Below, one piece after another: positions 16,388 through 23,058 of a stretch of DNA of 61,171 bases (position 1 is the stretch's first letter; every line of letters begins with the position of its first letter). The stretch is from Gammaproteobacteria bacterium 45_16_T64. Its GTDB lineage: Bacteria; Pseudomonadota; Gammaproteobacteria; Pseudomonadales; Ketobacteraceae. The notes under the pieces are model-generated. The model saw nothing but the letters and a program-made list of their open reading frames with translations. It did no database searches and was not told the origin of the DNA. Made by a program: the position numbers and the translations under genes. The stretch spans positions 33,939-95,109 of the forward strand of contig MABD01000044.1 in assembly GCA_002162955.1 (NCBI GenBank). The letters run 5' to 3'.

Positions 16388-17248
16388 ATGACCGATTCTT
16401 TTACAGTTGATGTTGACGAAAGAAACATCAATGATATTTTACAAAAATCCATGCAGACACCTGTGTTATTGGATTTTTGGTCAGGTGCCAGTGAAGCCTG
16501 CAAAACTATCGCACCGCTACTAACCACTATTGCTGAGCAGTATCAAGGAAAGTTCATTCACGCCAAGGTGGATGCTGATACCCATCCACAGATATCCCAG
16601 CAGCTAGGTGTGCAAAGTGTGCCTGCGTTGAAGTTGGTTGTAAAAGGCCAGTTAGCAGGTGAGTTGAACGGAGCGCAATCAGAAGAGGATATCCGAAAAT
16701 TCCTTGAACCCCATGTAGGTGAAGCGCCTGCTGGCGAAGGTGAGGATCCGTTTGTTACACAAATACAGCGAGCTCGTGCGGTAGGGGCGATTGATGATGC
16801 GATATCGTCCCTGGAATCGGCAATCAAAGAACAGCCTGCTGAGATGAAATACCAGGCGTTGTATGCTGATGTGTTGATGGATGCACAGCGGATTGATGAT
16901 GCGGAAGCCGTTATTAATAATATGGGCGATGACCCTATTGTGCCGAAAGCAAAGGCAAAGGTGTTTTTTGTTCGGATGATTGACGGTGCGGAAGCAGCTC
17001 AATCTCTACAAGCCAAAATCGAATCTGAAGGCGGGGATAGTGAATCAAGGTATCTTTTAGGGGCGTATTGTTTATTAGCGGGCCAAGAAGAAACGGGGTT
17101 AAACCTATTGCTGAGCGTTATGATGAATGATCGTGGGTTTAAGGAAGACGGCGCTCGGGTTGCCTTGTTGTCGGCGTTTGATTATTTGGGCACTGAGAAC
17201 CCTTTGACATCGAAGTACCGTCGAAAGATGTTTGCCCTATTGCATTGA
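16388..17248 (+). CDS. cnoX: CnoX/YbbN, thioredoxin-fold co-chaperone (chaperedoxin)
   Basis: A thioredoxin domain (residues 1-110: PVLLDFWSGASEACKTIAPL, VQSVPALKLVVKGQLAG) is followed by TPR-like repeats to residue 286. The usual CXXC is replaced by SEAC, the SXXC form known from E. coli CnoX, which holds oxidised clients by a mixed disulfide and passes them to GroEL or DnaK, mainly under hypochlorous-acid stress. Length fits the 284-residue E. coli protein. A strong terminator follows. Loss of the first Cys argues against a classical thioredoxin. Confidence 0.92.
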   Translation: MTDSFTVDVDERNINDILQKSMQTPVLLDFWSGASEACKTIAPLLTTIAEQYQGKFIHAKVDADTHPQISQQLGVQSVPALKLVVKGQLAGELNGAQSEEDIRKFLEPHVGEAPAGEGEDPFVTQIQRARAVGAIDDAISSLESAIKEQPAEMKYQALYADVLMDAQRIDDAEAVINNMGDDPIVPKAKAKVFFVRMIDGAEAAQSLQAKIESEGGDSESRYLLGAYCLLAGQEETGLNLLLSVMMNDRGFKEDGARVALLSAFDYLGTENPLTSKYRRKMFALLH

Positions 17249-17277: not shown

Positions 17278-17308
17278 AAAAGCGCCACCTATTATAGGTG
17301 GCGCTTTT
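17278..17308 (+). terminator. Intrinsic terminator of cnoX
   Basis: An 11-bp perfect stem, AGCGCCACCTA (17281-17291) with its complement (17295-17305), is flanked by AAA and TTT runs; strong hairpin, three-base loop. Confidence 0.9.
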
Positions 17309-17389
17309 GGTTCTAAATAGCTCTTTACCCTCCCAGGTTGTTGTTGGTTGTCTATAATTTATCGAGATATTGGTAAAGCTGGGCATAAA

Positions 17390-18739
17390 ATGGCAAAGAG
17401 GCGTAATCCACACAGGTTTTGGGCTGTAATTTGGTTTGCAGCATTGTTATGGGGAGGGGGCCTGAGAGCCGCTGTACCAGATGATCTTCAACGTTTATCT
17501 CAGCAACAGCGTTTTGTAGAGGCATACACCTTAGCAAAAAAGTGGCAGGAAGATTATGAGGGGGAGCCTCAATTTGACTTGTATTATGGGTTAGCGGCAC
17601 TTGAATTAGGTCATTTGGCCGAAGCGATTTTAGCGTTTGATCGGTTGTTAATTGTTAATCCTAATGCCTATCGGGCACGATTGGAAATGGCTCGAGCGCA
17701 TTTTCTATTGGCTGATTATGTGGAGTCACGAGCACAATTTGAACGGGTATTGGCCGCTTCACCTCCGCCTTTAGTTGCGAGCAGGATATACGTTTATCTC
17801 GATATGTTAACGGCGAGAGAGAAATCACAGCGTACAGCCTCTAGTGTTGTGCTGGTTGCTCGAGTGGGTCATTCCAGTAATATAAACAGTGCAACAACTG
17901 AAGATTATACTAATCCAATCCCCGGCCTTAATGTTGTAGTTGAAAGTGGCCAGCCAGAGCATACTATTTCGATAGATAAGGAGCAGCAAGCGCAGGGTAG
18001 TGAATACAGTGATATCGAAACACAGTTCAGTATCACGCGGCCTATCAACACCAAAAGGGCTCAATTTTTAACGGCCAGCTACCGCCGGTTGGCTTACCGT
18101 GACAGTGGTGACTATAACATCGACACCCTTAACGTGAGTGCAGGTTATCTGTTTCGTTCTGGGATTTCCCAATTTAGAATCCCCTTGAGTTATCAGGGGG
18201 TGTTATTGGATGGCGAGATGCTGCGGTATAGCGTGTCATTAGCGCTAGATGTGACTCGACCCTTAAGTGCGCAATTGGACTGGCTGAATTTTGGTGTGTT
18301 ATCTATTCAGCGCTACAAAGAGGACATTGAGAGAGATACTGATCTATTGCTTTTGGGGAGTGGGGTCGGCTATACGACTCCCCGCATGCCTATTCGGTTG
18401 TTTGGTAGTGTCATGTTGGCAGAGGAGCATGAGCGGGATGTGGCTGTGAATGGAAGAACCTATGGGGGTGTTCGTTTATCCGCGGAGTATATGTTTGGCT
18501 CAAAATTGAGTGGGTATTTATATGGCACCTCCCAATTATCGACCTATCATGACTCAGGTTTTTTTGAAGACAGGAGAGAGGATGTTTTTTGGGAGCTCAT
18601 TTTGGGTGCGCGGTGGCGATATTCTCGTTCGTTCGTGCTGAGTACAGATGTTTCTTACACTGACAATGATTCCAATACCGTTATTTATGATTATGAGCGA
18701 ACGAAATGGCAAATGACATTTCGTTATATCGTAGATTAG
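17390..18739 (+). CDS. TPR plus outer-membrane barrel protein (Slam/DUF560-like)
   Basis: The ATG at 17390 is chosen because a perfect -10 TATAAT at 17353-17358 places the transcript start after the alternative 17348 start. A signal peptide (FWAVIWFAALLWGGGLRAA) is followed by TPR-like helices (residues 30-150: LYYGLAALELGHLAEAILAF, AYRARLEMARAHFLLADYVE), then an amphipathic beta-barrel to residue 449. This order is that of surface lipoprotein assembly modulators (Slam, DUF560), which move substrates to the cell surface. The following gene, 21 bases on, could be its substrate. Slam identity is inferred from architecture, not from an alignment. Confidence 0.72.
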   Translation: MAKRRNPHRFWAVIWFAALLWGGGLRAAVPDDLQRLSQQQRFVEAYTLAKKWQEDYEGEPQFDLYYGLAALELGHLAEAILAFDRLLIVNPNAYRARLEMARAHFLLADYVESRAQFERVLAASPPPLVASRIYVYLDMLTAREKSQRTASSVVLVARVGHSSNINSATTEDYTNPIPGLNVVVESGQPEHTISIDKEQQAQGSEYSDIETQFSITRPINTKRAQFLTASYRRLAYRDSGDYNIDTLNVSAGYLFRSGISQFRIPLSYQGVLLDGEMLRYSVSLALDVTRPLSAQLDWLNFGVLSIQRYKEDIERDTDLLLLGSGVGYTTPRMPIRLFGSVMLAEEHERDVAVNGRTYGGVRLSAEYMFGSKLSGYLYGTSQLSTYHDSGFFEDRREDVFWELILGARWRYSRSFVLSTDVSYTDNDSNTVIYDYERTKWQMTFRYIVD

Positions 18740-18760
18740 GCGGTGGCATAAGGTGGAGCG

Positions 18761-20428
18761 ATGATCACATATCGAAGGGTATTGGCTGGTAGAAAACTTT
18801 CAATCAATCAATGGGTCAGTTTGTCTGTTGCACTGGCTCTATTGGTTTGTGTTAGGGCTGAGGCATTGCCGAATAATGATCCGACTGTCGCAGGTTTTAT
18901 TATCGTGGCATCCGGCGAGGTTGTGGCAATCAGAAGGCACGCCAAAGAGAGAGAATTGAAGCGGCGATCAAAGGTGTTTGAGGGTGATACGCTCGTGACG
19001 GGATCGTCAGGAAGAGCGCAGGTAAAGTTTAAGGATGGCGGGGTGATAGCCCTCAATGAAGATACCTCACTGATGATAAATCAGTTTCGATATAAGGAGG
19101 GCGAGACGGGGAGGCAGCGGAGTTTTTTTACCCTAGTTAAGGGTGGTTTTAGGGCAATTTCTGGAGTGATAGGTAAGCAGAACTCAGCGGATTATCGAGT
19201 GGATACACCATTGGCGACTATTGGTATTCGAGGGACTCATTATGAGGCGATATTAACGGATAGCCTTGGGGTTGCGGTTTGGGATGGCAGTGTCTCTATC
19301 GAAAATGATGGGGGGATACTTGATATTGGTGTGAATGATGATTATCGATTTGCAATGGTTACGCAGGCAACAAAAATACCGGAAGGGTGGCTGATTCCGC
19401 CAATGGGAGTTCGCGGGGTTCATGTAGCTCAGCTGAGAGCCCCAAAGGTGGCTTCTGAAAAACAAATGCCACGCAGGGAAGCTAGAGAAGATGGAGTGGG
19501 GGAGATGGGCAATCTTATGGGAGATCAGCACCAGTCTGTAAAACCATTGGGCCATCATTCCCCAGAACCCGAATTTGTTAAGCCGACACGGCAGGGCTTT
19601 GATGGGGGTGATGGACCAGAGCATCATCACCCTGATGGGATTCACCCGGTAATAGATGGAATCGTTGATAGTGTTGGCATCGATGCTAATCAAGATTTTC
19701 GGCTAACGACACAAGAGGCAAATAGCTTAGATCGAGTTGGGGTACTGACTATTGATCGAGAAACGCAGTGGGCGAATGGCATATTTGTGGGGAAAGCGAA
19801 CGGGCCTCTTAATGGCGATTTCATTTTTAAAGATTTTGATGCATCAAATGCCAATGCGGTGATTCGACGAAGGGACGTGTTTCCGGTCTATTTTTCTGCG
19901 GTGGTGGGCGGTAAATCGGTCGATTGGGGTGTTTGGAATGCCTCGGTCGGAGATTCAGCGGCAGCCTATTTTGATGCTTCAAGTGGGACTGCATCAGTTG
20001 GGGTGGTTGACCCTGTAACCTGGGTGGTGGGGAGTGCTACAGATGCCTCCGCGATTGCTAGCGAGGTTAGTTTGAGCAACTATAATACAGTGGTGGCGTT
20101 TCAAGGTTTTGAATCCGGTGTTGCACTGAGCACGCCAGGGGTAGCGTATATAGATATGGACTTTGCCACGGGTAACTTTACTGCTCAACTGAATTACACC
20201 GGCATCGGTGTTTGGAATATGTCCTATAGTGGTGTGGGGGTGGATAGTAAGCTGAGTGGCACCGGTACGGGGTCTTATAACGGTGGATTAGGGTTGCAGG
20301 CAGCGAGTGGTGAAATTAATGGTGTTTTGATTGGGAATACGCCGGAAGGGGTGATGGGCGGATTCAAAAACGAAGTAGTGAGCAATCCGGCGATACACTC
20401 GTCGGGTACATTTGTGATTCAGCGCTAG
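18761..20428 (+). CDS. FecR-domain secreted protein with C-terminal beta domain
   Basis: AGGTGGAG precedes the ATG. The signal peptide (VSLSVALALLVCVRAEA) is followed by a FecR domain at about residues 45-185: ASGEVVAIRRHAK, FEGDTLVTGSSGRAQVKF, DTPLATIGIRGTHYEAI. A His/Pro-rich linker follows (about 240-295), then DANQDFRLTTQE, which looks like an EF-hand-type calcium loop, and a Gly/Ser/Asn-rich beta region to residue 555. The end (SGTFVIQR) recalls TbpB-like lipocalin barrels, but there is no clear lipobox, so it is probably periplasmic or exported by the preceding barrel gene. The FecR domain here is separate from any sigma/anti-sigma pair; none is nearby. Confidence 0.75.
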   Translation: MITYRRVLAGRKLSINQWVSLSVALALLVCVRAEALPNNDPTVAGFIIVASGEVVAIRRHAKERELKRRSKVFEGDTLVTGSSGRAQVKFKDGGVIALNEDTSLMINQFRYKEGETGRQRSFFTLVKGGFRAISGVIGKQNSADYRVDTPLATIGIRGTHYEAILTDSLGVAVWDGSVSIENDGGILDIGVNDDYRFAMVTQATKIPEGWLIPPMGVRGVHVAQLRAPKVASEKQMPRREAREDGVGEMGNLMGDQHQSVKPLGHHSPEPEFVKPTRQGFDGGDGPEHHHPDGIHPVIDGIVDSVGIDANQDFRLTTQEANSLDRVGVLTIDRETQWANGIFVGKANGPLNGDFIFKDFDASNANAVIRRRDVFPVYFSAVVGGKSVDWGVWNASVGDSAAAYFDASSGTASVGVVDPVTWVVGSATDASAIASEVSLSNYNTVVAFQGFESGVALSTPGVAYIDMDFATGNFTAQLNYTGIGVWNMSYSGVGVDSKLSGTGTGSYNGGLGLQAASGEINGVLIGNTPEGVMGGFKNEVVSNPAIHSSGTFVIQR

Positions 20429-20479
20429 GTGTGGCGGTACAATGATTCACGGAGCGAGTGAAATAATAACAATAAGTAA

Positions 20480-21721
20480 GTGGATCCTGTGAAAGAAGAA
20501 AATGATGATATTATCAATGATCGGATAGAAGGTGATTTTTATTCGAATGCATTGCATTTGCGTTTTAATAAGGCCTTAGAAAATCGCTACCGTCGAATCT
20601 ATGCCCGCCGAGACCGTCGTTACGTCAGAAGTCTTTTGGTCGTGTTAATTGTCTGCTATATCTTGTATGGCGTTGTCGACTGGTTTCTATTGGGAGAGGC
20701 GGCATCCAACGTCTGGATGGTCCGTTATCTGGTAGGGGCCCCTGTGCTGTGTATGCTGTGGTTCGTTGCTAGGGGGCGCTGGGTAGAGGAATATCTACAA
20801 ATCTTTATTACCGCTGGCATCCTAATGCTAGTAATAACGACATTGTGGATGGTGACATTTGTGGGTGGGGTGGCAGTACATGCGTACATTAGTAGTTTGC
20901 TGGCGATGATCATGGGGGGGTTAACCATTACCAGGTTGCATTTTAACTACGCGGCATTAACGGCAAGTATTTATATCCTTGCATCCGCTTTTGCGTTGTT
21001 ACCTATGACGGAAGCCAACCCTCTCGTGACGTATTATCTATGGTTAAATGTTATTGCTGTATCTCTATGCTTGGTGGCAGTGTATACCTACGAGCGCACG
21101 ATTCGGCGGGAATTCCTCCAAAAGATCCTTATACAGAGAAAGAACAACGAGCTGAGAAAGGCGAATGAAAAGTTAAAAACCCTGGTGGACGTTGATCCGC
21201 TAACCAATATCGCTAATCGACGGTATTTAGATCAAGTACTCGATCAGGAATGGCGGCGAGCGAAACGCAGAAATTATAGTATTGCAATATTGATGGTAGA
21301 TATCGATTTTTTCAAAGCGTATAACGATAGCTTAGGTCATCTTAATGGTGATAGTTGTATTCAGCGAGTCGCAACACGCATTGGTCAGATTATGAGGCGT
21401 CCCGGTGATTTGGTCGCGCGATACGGTGGTGAAGAGTTTGCGGTTGTGCTGCCAGCCTTGAATATCGATGAGGCTAACCGATTGGCGGAATCTGTGTGCG
21501 ATGCGATAGAAAGCTTGTTGATTGAGCATCCAAACTCTAGTGTGTCGCCCTATGTGACGGTGAGTGTTGGGGCGGCGGCAATGATACCTGTTGAGCCCTA
21601 TAATAAGCAGGATCTGGTCGCGATGGCAGATGAAGCGCTGTATCAAGCGAAGAGCCAAGGGAGAAACCAAACTGCAAAGGTAGTCATACCCCAGCAAGTG
21701 TCTCTACTCGATAGTGATTAG
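20480..21721 (+). CDS. Membrane diguanylate cyclase (GGDEF, active-site intact)
   Basis: Makes cyclic di-GMP from two GTP. Residues 45-215 contain about six membrane helices, with no recognised sensor fold. A short coiled coil (about 220-240) leads into the GGDEF domain (240-405): DPLTNIANRRYLDQVL, the metal Asp in VDIDFFKAYND, and GGEEF at residues 316-320. An RPGD inhibitory site lies five residues upstream, so product feedback is expected. Start is GTG at 20480 or GTG at 20489; the second has GGATCC spaced for binding. It follows the FecR gene by 51 bases and is paired with a degenerate homologue. Confidence 0.93.
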   Translation: MDPVKEENDDIINDRIEGDFYSNALHLRFNKALENRYRRIYARRDRRYVRSLLVVLIVCYILYGVVDWFLLGEAASNVWMVRYLVGAPVLCMLWFVARGRWVEEYLQIFITAGILMLVITTLWMVTFVGGVAVHAYISSLLAMIMGGLTITRLHFNYAALTASIYILASAFALLPMTEANPLVTYYLWLNVIAVSLCLVAVYTYERTIRREFLQKILIQRKNNELRKANEKLKTLVDVDPLTNIANRRYLDQVLDQEWRRAKRRNYSIAILMVDIDFFKAYNDSLGHLNGDSCIQRVATRIGQIMRRPGDLVARYGGEEFAVVLPALNIDEANRLAESVCDAIESLLIEHPNSSVSPYVTVSVGAAAMIPVEPYNKQDLVAMADEALYQAKSQGRNQTAKVVIPQQVSLLDSD

Positions 21722-21831
21722 GTTAATTTTGTTAGGCAGGGCGGGCTTTGAGAGATAACCAACTGTTACGAACTATTGATAGAAAACCCCAAATATAATT
21801 GGTATAAACGCTGATCTTTTGTGTCGATATA

Positions 21832-23058
21832 ATGAGATTGGCTGTGGAAAATAGAAAATACCACCAAGTAGTTGATGAATTATCGTCTTTGCGGGAAGCA
21901 TCCGCGTTCAATTTGCGTTTTTCGACGTTAATGGAGCATGCTTTTCAGCAGTCACATGGTCTTTGGTACAGGGACAGCATTCGTTTCGCGACATTGTTTG
22001 CTGCCCTGTTGTTTGGCTCTGTGTATGCGGTTCAGTGGTTTGTCGGGTTGGAAGTGCCCCCGCTATTGGAATTGGGTCGGGTGGGGTCTATAGCCCTACT
22101 ACTTATTACCTATGTTTATGTTGTTCGTTCCAGGCGCCTTGTCTACCAGCACATCTTAGTGAATCTCAATGCGTTTGTGGCGACGTTGGTGATACTGTCT
22201 TTTTGCATGCACTATCCCGCTCCTTACAAGCATATTTTTTATTCTGCGATCATCTTTGTTGAGATATTTATGTTCGCACTGATTAGGACGCCCTTGGTAA
22301 GCTCATTTTTTGGTAGTGTGATATTACTGTTGGCGTCGAACGTAGCACTTTATTTAGATGGCTCGACAATCCAGGAATGGGTTTTTATCGAGTTTCTTTT
22401 GCTTTCAGGTACTTTGTTATCGTTAGTGATTTGCTATCGAATGGAGAGAAGCACACGAGAGCATTATCTTCAATCATTATTGATGAGTATGGAAAGAGAT
22501 CAGCTGAAGCTATTGAACTGCCAGCTCAAAGATCGTTTAGCAGAGGACCCTGTGACTCATCTTCTTAATCGCCGTACGTTTGAGGATGCGGTGTTGGATA
22601 AGTGGAATCGAGCGTTTCAGAATCGAAAGGAATCGGCGCTAGTGGCCATAAGTATTGAGTCTCTGAAGAAGCTAAATCAGATGCGTGGGTCAGATGCTGG
22701 AGATGATATTTTAAAATCTGTAGCCCGGCAGATCAAAAAGATCCTGTTCGAGAGTGATGATGTAGCATCACGAATTTCAGGTGGACGGTTTTGTATTCTG
22801 TTGTCAAACGCCTCGAATACTGAGATCAATCGGCGGATGAAAAAGCTTCGTCAGGGATTGTCATCTATTACAATTCTCAAGGATGAAGAAATTAGACAGG
22901 CTGGCATTCGTATTAGTGTTGCAACGAATACGTTGATGCCTGAGGCTGATGTGGATTCGAGGGATGCGATTAAACGCGTCATGAAAGATGTGGAGCCATT
23001 GTTTTTTACGGGCAAGAATGAATACGAACTCACTGCGACTGATCAGATCGCAAGTTGA
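21832..23058 (+). CDS. Membrane protein with degenerate GGDEF domain
   Basis: Same size and layout as its upstream neighbour: cytoplasmic N-terminus, about six membrane helices (residues 50-205), coiled coil, GGDEF-like domain (DPVTHLLNRRTFEDAVL). Catalytic residues are lost: GGDEF is SGGRF at residues 316-320, the metal Asp region reads SIESLKKLNQ, and no RxxD I-site remains. It is probably catalytically dead and may bind GTP or c-di-GMP or modulate the neighbour as a heteromer. The matching motif positions (316-320 in both) suggest tandem duplication. Start codon is uncertain (ATG 21832 or GTG 21844); no clear ribosome site. Confidence 0.85.
   Translation: MRLAVENRKYHQVVDELSSLREASAFNLRFSTLMEHAFQQSHGLWYRDSIRFATLFAALLFGSVYAVQWFVGLEVPPLLELGRVGSIALLLITYVYVVRSRRLVYQHILVNLNAFVATLVILSFCMHYPAPYKHIFYSAIIFVEIFMFALIRTPLVSSFFGSVILLLASNVALYLDGSTIQEWVFIEFLLLSGTLLSLVICYRMERSTREHYLQSLLMSMERDQLKLLNCQLKDRLAEDPVTHLLNRRTFEDAVLDKWNRAFQNRKESALVAISIESLKKLNQMRGSDAGDDILKSVARQIKKILFESDDVASRISGGRFCILLSNASNTEINRRMKKLRQGLSSITILKDEEIRQAGIRISVATNTLMPEADVDSRDAIKRVMKDVEPLFFTGKNEYELTATDQIAS

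Follow-up and report, generated by a model that had tools for sequence, protein, structure and literature searches.

A putative type 11 secretion-like barrel–FecR gene pair with a probable CHASE2 cyclase partner, located beside a separate GGDEF gene pair

The window analysed here, a stretch of 61,171 nucleotides (nt) of Gammaproteobacteria bacterium 45_16_T64 (contig MABD01000044.1, positions 33,939 to 95,109; genome G000 of this study), contains four consecutive genes coding for a protein with tetratricopeptide repeats (TPR) and a beta-barrel, a FecR-domain protein, and two membrane proteins with a GGDEF domain. An initial annotation had grouped these genes as one surface and cyclic diguanylate (c-di-GMP) module, in which the state of the FecR protein would be passed to the GGDEF pair. 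Comparative analysis revealed two separate units, not one module. The barrel and FecR genes form an old, widespread gene pair, beyond chance, and the conserved signalling partner of this pair is a class III nucleotide cyclase with a CHASE2 sensor, not a GGDEF protein. It is reasonably likely that the pair represents a Slam-type export unit with a FecR cargo, acting in a circuit with a CHASE2 cyclase and a cyclic nucleoside monophosphate (cNMP)-binding protein, and that the GGDEF pair stands apart from it. This reading builds on the computed domain anatomy, the conserved pairing, and the linkage and co-occurrence with one CHASE2 cyclase subfamily. The four genes are:

17390–18739, plus strand: TPR-barrel gene, open reading frame (ORF) of 449 amino acids (aa), alternative start codon TTG at 17348
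approximately 17480–17827, plus strand: TPR helices of the barrel gene
approximately 17837–18733, plus strand: barrel part of the barrel gene
18761–20428, plus strand: FecR gene, ORF of 555 aa, predicted cargo of the barrel
20480–21721, plus strand: GGDEF1 gene, ORF of 413 aa, intact membrane diguanylate cyclase
21832–23058, plus strand: GGDEF2 gene, ORF of 408 aa, membrane protein with a degenerate GGDEF domain

As originally annotated, all four ORFs lie on one strand with small gaps (21, 51, and 110 nt, respectively), and Pfam recovered the domains of the FecR protein (E-value 6.6e-15), GGDEF1 (2.1e-51), and GGDEF2 (1.5e-23).

Distribution of the barrel–FecR pair and its linkage to CHASE2 cyclases

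The named FecR loci were obtained by a scan of GTDB species genomes and comprise the best 80 of 169. A set of three FecR domains, two or more of them barrel-linked, served as query, so that this sample leans to linked cases; the conservation of a first FecR alignment was too low for a scan of the collection. A barrel gene was found directly upstream and on the same strand in 71 of the 80 named loci (73 by a looser criterion), the record titles of which refer to Gamma- and Betaproteobacteria. Among the nine loci without a counted pair, L176, L187, and L234 start near a contig end, L222 and L226 are excluded only by the spacing rule, L245 has a barrel approximately 2 kb upstream, and no barrel was seen at L196, L223, and L243. 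In the opposite direction, at least 59 of the 63 strong barrel places in 369 genomes of the class (best matches down to 4e-40, the window's own excluded) were accompanied by a same-strand FecR match at a distance of up to 3 kb. The class linkage count made use of 110 FecR and 90 CHASE2 places, the listed places left out being mostly in genomes without a counted barrel, and the numbers of barrel, FecR, and CHASE2 places are lower bounds. At the order level, the barrel adjoins FecR in G000, G039, G051, G024, G019, and G031, and also, with broken frames, in G038. Two variants of the pair were encountered as well, namely a fused form, in which a single ORF matches both FecR and barrel (L047:5769-7814; G019), and a set of barrel, FecR, and CHASE2 genes that are all apparently broken, as if decaying together (L049 and L254; G038).

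A CHASE2 domain was encoded in the flanks of 14 of the 80 named loci, in 13 cases together with a class III cyclase domain. Relative to 73 pairs, the CHASE2 cyclase gene was located downstream and convergent in nine, downstream on the same strand in one, and upstream in one. In the class, CHASE2 occurred within 10 kb of at least 20 of the 63 barrels, versus approximately 0.6 expected. Furthermore, a CHASE2 cyclase subfamily of approximately 745 aa was retrieved from the order in G000, G039, G051, G024, G019 (with a second copy of 859 aa), G031, G022, and G020. At this level (n = 57), pair and cyclase occurred together in six cases, the pair only in one, the cyclase only in two, and neither in 48 (Fisher p 5e-6); the family relatives of G000 had no CHASE2 or other CHASE2 types. 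Similarly, among the matches listed for the class, CHASE2 of the subtype size was found in 48 of the 56 genomes with a barrel versus 35 of the 312 without (p 4e-29), these CHASE2 counts being lower bounds and the p-values being inflated by relatedness. Only CHASE2 of another size was listed for 3 of 56 versus 30 of 312 genomes, hence without excess. A genome was counted as having the subtype when one CHASE2 place (150 listed places used) covered 1030 bases or more and its frame measured 700–830 aa; this size rule was set after the linked cases were known. The cyclase imagined in the initial annotation was thus the right kind of partner; on present evidence it was the wrong one, the partner being of the CHASE2 class III type and not a GGDEF protein.

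Besides these limits of the class counts, several observations weigh against a fixed tie between pair and cyclase. No CHASE2 was found within the flanks examined of 66 of the 80 named loci, and in the window the barrel–FecR pair is not adjacent to a CHASE2 cyclase. In addition, the pair is missing from G022 and G020, both of which have the cyclase subtype, G038 combines the pair with an apparently broken CHASE2 and no intact cyclase, and G025 encodes a cargo-like FecR protein with neither a barrel nor a CHASE2 match in a genome that is 81% complete.

The genome of the window does contain a CHASE2 cyclase of the same subfamily. Its sole CHASE2 match lies on contig C53, in a protein of 741 aa (CHASE2, 2.4e-51; Guanylate_cyc, 5e-20), next to a back-to-back neighbour with a cNMP-binding domain (3.7e-24) and a rhodanese domain (2.2e-11). 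The same cNMP/rhodanese protein type adjoins the cyclase in G039. Its gene occurs immediately 5' of the barrel in L169 (as two frames), L171, L172, L174, L175, and L204, and in all of these except L169 the order is receptor, barrel, FecR, and convergent cyclase. Such a full locus with receptor is the exception, a cNMP/rhodanese gene upstream of the barrel being present in 6 of the 80 named loci. In Thiohalobacter thiocyanaticus (L170), for instance, a barrel–FecR–cyclase locus is present, and a search of its surroundings revealed no cNMP/rhodanese gene. Other arrangements around CHASE2 were noticed too. In Oxalicibacterium (L220:11452-13653), an ORF of 733 aa, TPR-like by eye, separates FecR from a CHASE2 cyclase on the same strand, which recalls the Campylobacterota cluster discussed below. 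In L255–L260 (G001, G002, G003, G017, G033, and G056), CHASE2 proteins of 770–908 aa without a cyclase match are encoded beside FecR genes, resembling the BiofilmReg operon, also discussed below.

The putative exporter and its predicted FecR cargo

The barrel protein displays TPR and a weak barrel match under the Pfam cut-offs. Its AlphaFold model, made with 56 sequences, predicts TPR helices at the N-terminus followed by 14 strands (predicted local distance difference test (pLDDT) 92.9), which we take to be the strand number of Slam barrels; the anatomy of a Slam-type or type 11 secretion system (T11SS) barrel is thus found in the predicted model. Moreover, 30 of the 56 barrel relatives match SlipAM (DUF560, PF04575) at E<=0.01, so that the annotated assignment to the Slam/DUF560 type agrees with both model and relatives. 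Some results point the other way: the window barrel itself has no SlipAM match at E<=1 and a TPR_Slam match of only 0.036, the top SlipAM score of the set belongs to a barrel that is not paired with FecR (L051), and the best matches of a PDB fold search were BcsC and porins, with no Slam structure among them. As the fold search gave BcsC and porins, the link with Slam rests on profiles, cargo, and anatomy. A Slam- or T11SS-like exporter is the best reading of the modelled barrel. The L051 barrel, a clear SlipAM match, has a neighbour that combines a TbpB_B_D end with a weak match to a lipase and represents a further unusual T11SS cargo (L051:5006-8421; G050).

The FecR protein comprises the following parts:

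18887–19390, plus strand: FecR beta-domain, residues 43–210 (Pfam, model, 5ix9 match)
19415–19684, plus strand: predicted disordered linker, residues 219–308 (pLDDT <50 nearly throughout)
19730–20032, plus strand: strand-rich 'handle' region, residues 324–424 (model, moderate confidence)
20072–20422, plus strand: 8-strand TbpB-like C-terminal barrel, residues 438–554 (model, Foldseek, profile)

In this protein, the FecR domain comes after a hydrophobic stretch (residues 13–31). As judged by eye, the N-terminus is signal-peptide-like without a clear lipobox, so that a soluble cargo is probable. The AlphaFold model of the FecR protein (34 sequences; mean pLDDT 75.5; predicted template modelling score 0.48) displays a C-terminal 8-strand TbpB-like barrel, which, together with the adjacent position of its gene, corresponds to the anatomy of a Slam cargo. 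Indeed, all 29 PDB matches obtained with Foldseek at E<=0.001 were TbpB or hemophilin/HphA entries, six of them being chain B of TbpA–TbpB complexes, so that the beta-domain end noted in the initial annotation was recovered as TbpB-like, in partial matches. Both TbpB and hemophilin are known Slam/T11SS cargo (PMC12282271). Furthermore, TbpB_B_D and the NCBIfam model slam_lipo each matched 9 of the 34 members of the FecR set. In the linked loci, 63 of the 84 FecR ORFs (a number that includes the window's own, second FecR genes, and contig-end fragments) matched a C-terminal barrel profile, in 62 cases with no more than 40 residues left between the match and the C-terminus; none of the seven unlinked FecR controls of the order did so. 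Export or display of the FecR protein by the barrel, as was proposed at first, is the best reading of these models, profiles, and Foldseek matches.

The cargo assignment has its own counterweights. The matches to TbpB folds cover part of the structure (TM-score 0.20–0.25 of the query; root-mean-square deviation 8–19 A), and linked proteins served both to build and to iterate the C-terminal profile. The C-terminal barrel is lacking in the linked FecR proteins of L047 and L048 and present in five of the seven FecR ORFs of loci without a counted pair, among them that of L196, where no barrel gene occurs within 8 kb.

In one alternative, the barrel would be a surface receptor and not an exporter, with FecR as a periplasmic relay to the CHASE2 cyclase. 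Its template is the chain of Sinorhizobium meliloti, composed of the barrel NsrA, the CHASE2 cyclases CyaD1, CyaD2, and CyaK, and the receptor Clr (PMC7529298, PMC13001267, PMC5498481), where the outer-membrane barrel NsrA is required for CHASE2 cyclase signalling (PMC7529298, PMC13001267) and a FecR-domain gene (SMc02177) is numbered next to cyaD1 (SMc02176) (PMC5498481). A relay would also suit the short FecR proteins, devoid of the C-terminal barrel, of some linked loci. Such a receptor is nevertheless unlikely, in view of the T11SS-cargo-type barrel of most linked FecR ORFs and of the SlipAM matches among the barrel relatives.

A second alternative arises from the FecR domain itself. This domain resembles 5ix9 (titles 'Antifreeze protein' and 'Cell surface anchoring domain') in profile (E 2.8e-6) and in fold (62 columns, 32% identity, 1.2 A), and 28 of the 34 FecR members match the NCBIfam LapA retention module at E<=0.001, the window protein being under the model cut-off. 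Because of this resemblance to 5ix9 and to LapA-type retention modules, the FecR domain may be a retention part. The same resemblance, and the existence of cargo of approximately 2000 aa with several barrels, would suit a plain T11SS displaying a FecR-type surface protein as adhesin, the CHASE2 link reflecting shared regulation. This explanation is quite improbable, given how strongly the pair is linked to, and co-occurs with, a single cyclase subfamily and a cNMP receptor. Tandem arrays of three or four C-terminal-type barrels occur in linked FecR proteins of 1914–2298 aa (L208, L237, and L244).

The GGDEF pair and the gene neighbourhood

The family set consists of 15 genomes, including G000. 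Close matches of GGDEF1 and GGDEF2, adjacent and in the same order, were found in 12 of them (G000, G002, G003, G004, G005, G007, G008, G010, G011, G012, G013, and G014), whereas G009 has GGDEF2 only and the pair was not found in G001 and G006 (the latter 54% complete). The neighbourhoods of the 11 other pair-bearing genomes and of G009 were inspected. In all 12, mfd was called, and in 11 a gene for a thioredoxin-TPR protein, presumably cnoX, is located immediately 5' of the GGDEF genes; in the exception, G010, it was masked by the simple ORF caller, as was GGDEF1 of G008. These 12 genomes yielded no barrel match, and FecR matches, where any, were weak and always on other contigs. A full-length FecR match, and hence the four-gene order, occurs in one of the 15 family genomes. 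Non-conservation of this order in other genomes had been set beforehand as the ground for giving up the idea of one system. The four-gene module as a conserved system was rejected, the GGDEF pair being present without barrel and FecR in 11 of the 12 pair-bearing genomes and GGDEF2 alone in G009. The order is not beyond chance either: given 76 GGDEF matches in G000, it is not improbable for a GGDEF gene to be the neighbour.

The annotation of one intact and one degenerate GGDEF protein was borne out, and that of six membrane helices was about right, a hydropathy scan giving five and six. GGDEF1 displays the motif RYGGEEF, the GGEEF part of which is retained by all 13 aligned sequences (two from other families), and an RxxD motif, which we take to be an I-site. 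The corresponding motif of GGDEF2 is SGGRF, and each of the 13 sequences aligned has a degenerate version (SGGRF, SGARF, GGGRF, or SGGKF); the aspartate in the DIDFFK stretch of GGDEF1, to which, as to the other GGDEF motifs, we assign its customary role, is absent from GGDEF2. As the degenerate motif is itself conserved, GGDEF2 reads from its sequence as a maintained pseudo-cyclase, probably a regulator of, or c-di-GMP receptor for, GGDEF1. The GGDEF pair is probably a family-wide c-di-GMP unit of another function and a bystander to barrel–FecR. Among the relatives of GGDEF2 (window 21832-23058; L119–L130), an intact cyclase adjoins in most, in agreement with an old active/inactive pair.

Two features precede the barrel gene:

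16388–17248, plus strand: thioredoxin-TPR gene (cnoX-like), upstream neighbour of the barrel gene
17278–17308, plus strand: hairpin of 14 pairs with four T at its end, between the cnoX-like gene and the barrel gene

The hairpin (fold z-score -5.9; equally good in 0 of 200 shuffles) is not among the sites listed by a terminator scan; it is possibly a terminator that separates the barrel–FecR pair from the cnoX-like gene. A fold test found no stable hairpin in the 51-nt gap between FecR and GGDEF1. One transcript for a single pathway from the surface to c-di-GMP, comprising the barrel, the FecR protein, and both GGDEF proteins, is therefore possible on the one strand, and clusters of FecR-type genes with cyclic AMP (cAMP) or c-di-GMP enzymes have been mentioned for Campylobacterota (PMC9239204). 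Such a pathway is still very improbable. In family genomes devoid of barrel and FecR, the GGDEF pair likewise follows the cnoX-like gene, G000 encodes the CHASE2 cyclase partner at another place, the four-gene order is confined to that genome in the family, and GGDEF was found in 3 of the 80 pair loci versus approximately 14 expected at the density of G000. With a narrow GGDEF profile and G000 being GGDEF-rich, this last comparison argues only against enrichment. The proposed passage of the FecR state to the GGDEF pair is not upheld by these data.

The G+C content of the barrel and FecR genes is similar to that of the neighbouring genes. The order cnoX-like gene, barrel, and FecR also occurs in L177 (=G039) and L168, which makes an old position of barrel–FecR conceivable and allows losses in relatives as an alternative to a simple recent insertion. 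In the barrel tree, the window groups with L177 (support 94/90, just short of the strong-support mark of the tool), its branch being long, its place unsure, and its highest identity to other barrels of the set being 30%. G000 and G039, whose barrels pair in this tree, thus represent two of the three cases of the cnoX-like gene followed by barrel–FecR, and both have the system in two halves. A loss of the native GGDEF1 promoter is not claimed, since the sequence upstream of GGDEF1, compared by eye, is not conserved in G004 either.

Proposed circuit and comparison with known systems

In the preferred reading, the TPR-barrel would export or display the soluble FecR protein by handling the TbpB-like barrel at the C-terminus of the cargo. 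The FecR domain, at the periplasmic side, may contact and control the CHASE2 sensor of the cyclase, and the cyclase product, probably cAMP, would be read by the cNMP-binding/rhodanese protein encoded beside the cyclase. This unit would be split in G000, with barrel–FecR in the window and cyclase and receptor on contig C53. The Sinorhizobium precedent favours cAMP, as do catalytic residues that we take to indicate this product. The data are best read as a cyclic-nucleotide circuit; they support the export idea and leave a c-di-GMP module unsupported. A bolder version, which we consider rather unlikely, is a trans-envelope switch, in which the cargo barrel would be outside via the Slam-like pore, the FecR domain retained in the periplasm, the linker running through the pore, and FecR touching CHASE2. 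If true, threading or surface binding would be reported directly as a cyclic-nucleotide signal, making the T11SS a signalling device as well.

The proposed circuit joins two literatures that were found apart, on type 11 secretion (TbpB, hemophilin) and on FecR/CHASE2 second-messenger signalling. If true, it would provide a location and a route for a large class of FecR proteins and a candidate input for CHASE2 sensors, and it predicts a T11SS cargo set with roles other than in iron and adhesion. A false lead is removed as well: the neighbouring c-di-GMP genes are probably bystanders. One published result weighs against it. In Sinorhizobium, the FecR gene beside cyaD1 is not needed for signal perception, other signals being left possible by the authors (PMC5498481), which counts against a simple relay role of FecR.

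Parts of this arrangement are known from other systems. The classical FecA–FecR–FecI system shares the periplasmic-type FecR domain (PF04773), whereas the FecR protein of the window has a hydrophobic stretch at the N-terminus and no cytoplasmic anti-sigma part. In agreement with the initial annotation, neither a sigma factor nor a TonB receptor was found among the 14 flanking window proteins scanned with Pfam (four at E<=1 and ten at E<=1e-5), which are not all flanking ORFs. In Lysobacter, genes for a sigma factor, a FecR regulator, and a TonB transporter are clustered with a Slam-type gene and a gene for a TbpB-like protein that depends on Slam; unlike in the window, FecR is a separate regulator there and not the cargo (PMC11233812). 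In PMC2662411, which also mentions TbpB, FecR occurs in the references only.

FecR genes beside second-messenger enzymes have been published, so that the initial view of a system not yet described does not hold in this respect. For Campylobacterota, gene clusters have been reported that combine CHASE2 cyclases with a phosphodiesterase, a TPR protein, and an outer-membrane protein with a FecR domain, and extracytoplasmic function (ECF) components beside c-di-GMP enzymes are also mentioned (PMC9239204). The present loci differ in belonging to Gamma- and Betaproteobacteria, in the T11SS-type cargo barrel that FecR carries, and in the cNMP/rhodanese protein of full loci, the unit being split in G000. 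The BiofilmReg operon of Burkholderia, encoding a response regulator, a LysM-FecR protein, and a CHASE2 histidine kinase (PMC5192318), likewise has a FecR-domain protein beside a CHASE2 sensor; its output is a histidine kinase, the operon as described has no barrel, and LysM takes the place of the cargo barrel. The Sinorhizobium chain resembles the proposed circuit in its outer-membrane barrel, CHASE2 cyclase, and cAMP receptor, and differs in that NsrA, the barrel portion of which spans residues 600–1200, is called a receptor.

The closest likeness is that to Slam/T11SS (DUF560, PF04575), which shares the TPR and 14-strand barrel, the adjacent cargo gene, and a cargo with an 8-strand barrel and handle; a soluble T11SS cargo is known as well, namely hemophilin (PMC12282271). 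The differences are the FecR domain at the N-terminus of the cargo, the absence of a SlipAM match in the window barrel, and the tie to a nucleotide cyclase. FecR has zero occurrences in the main text of two T11SS surveys (PMC12282271, PMC8406197), and no paper was found that joins FecR to type 11 secretion, Slam, or DUF560, or that names FecR as such a cargo. FecR as cargo is therefore unreported in the literature found, and the initial claim of novelty stands in this part. The class to which the unit belongs is known; the predicted cargo role of FecR and the tie to a cyclase locus are new.

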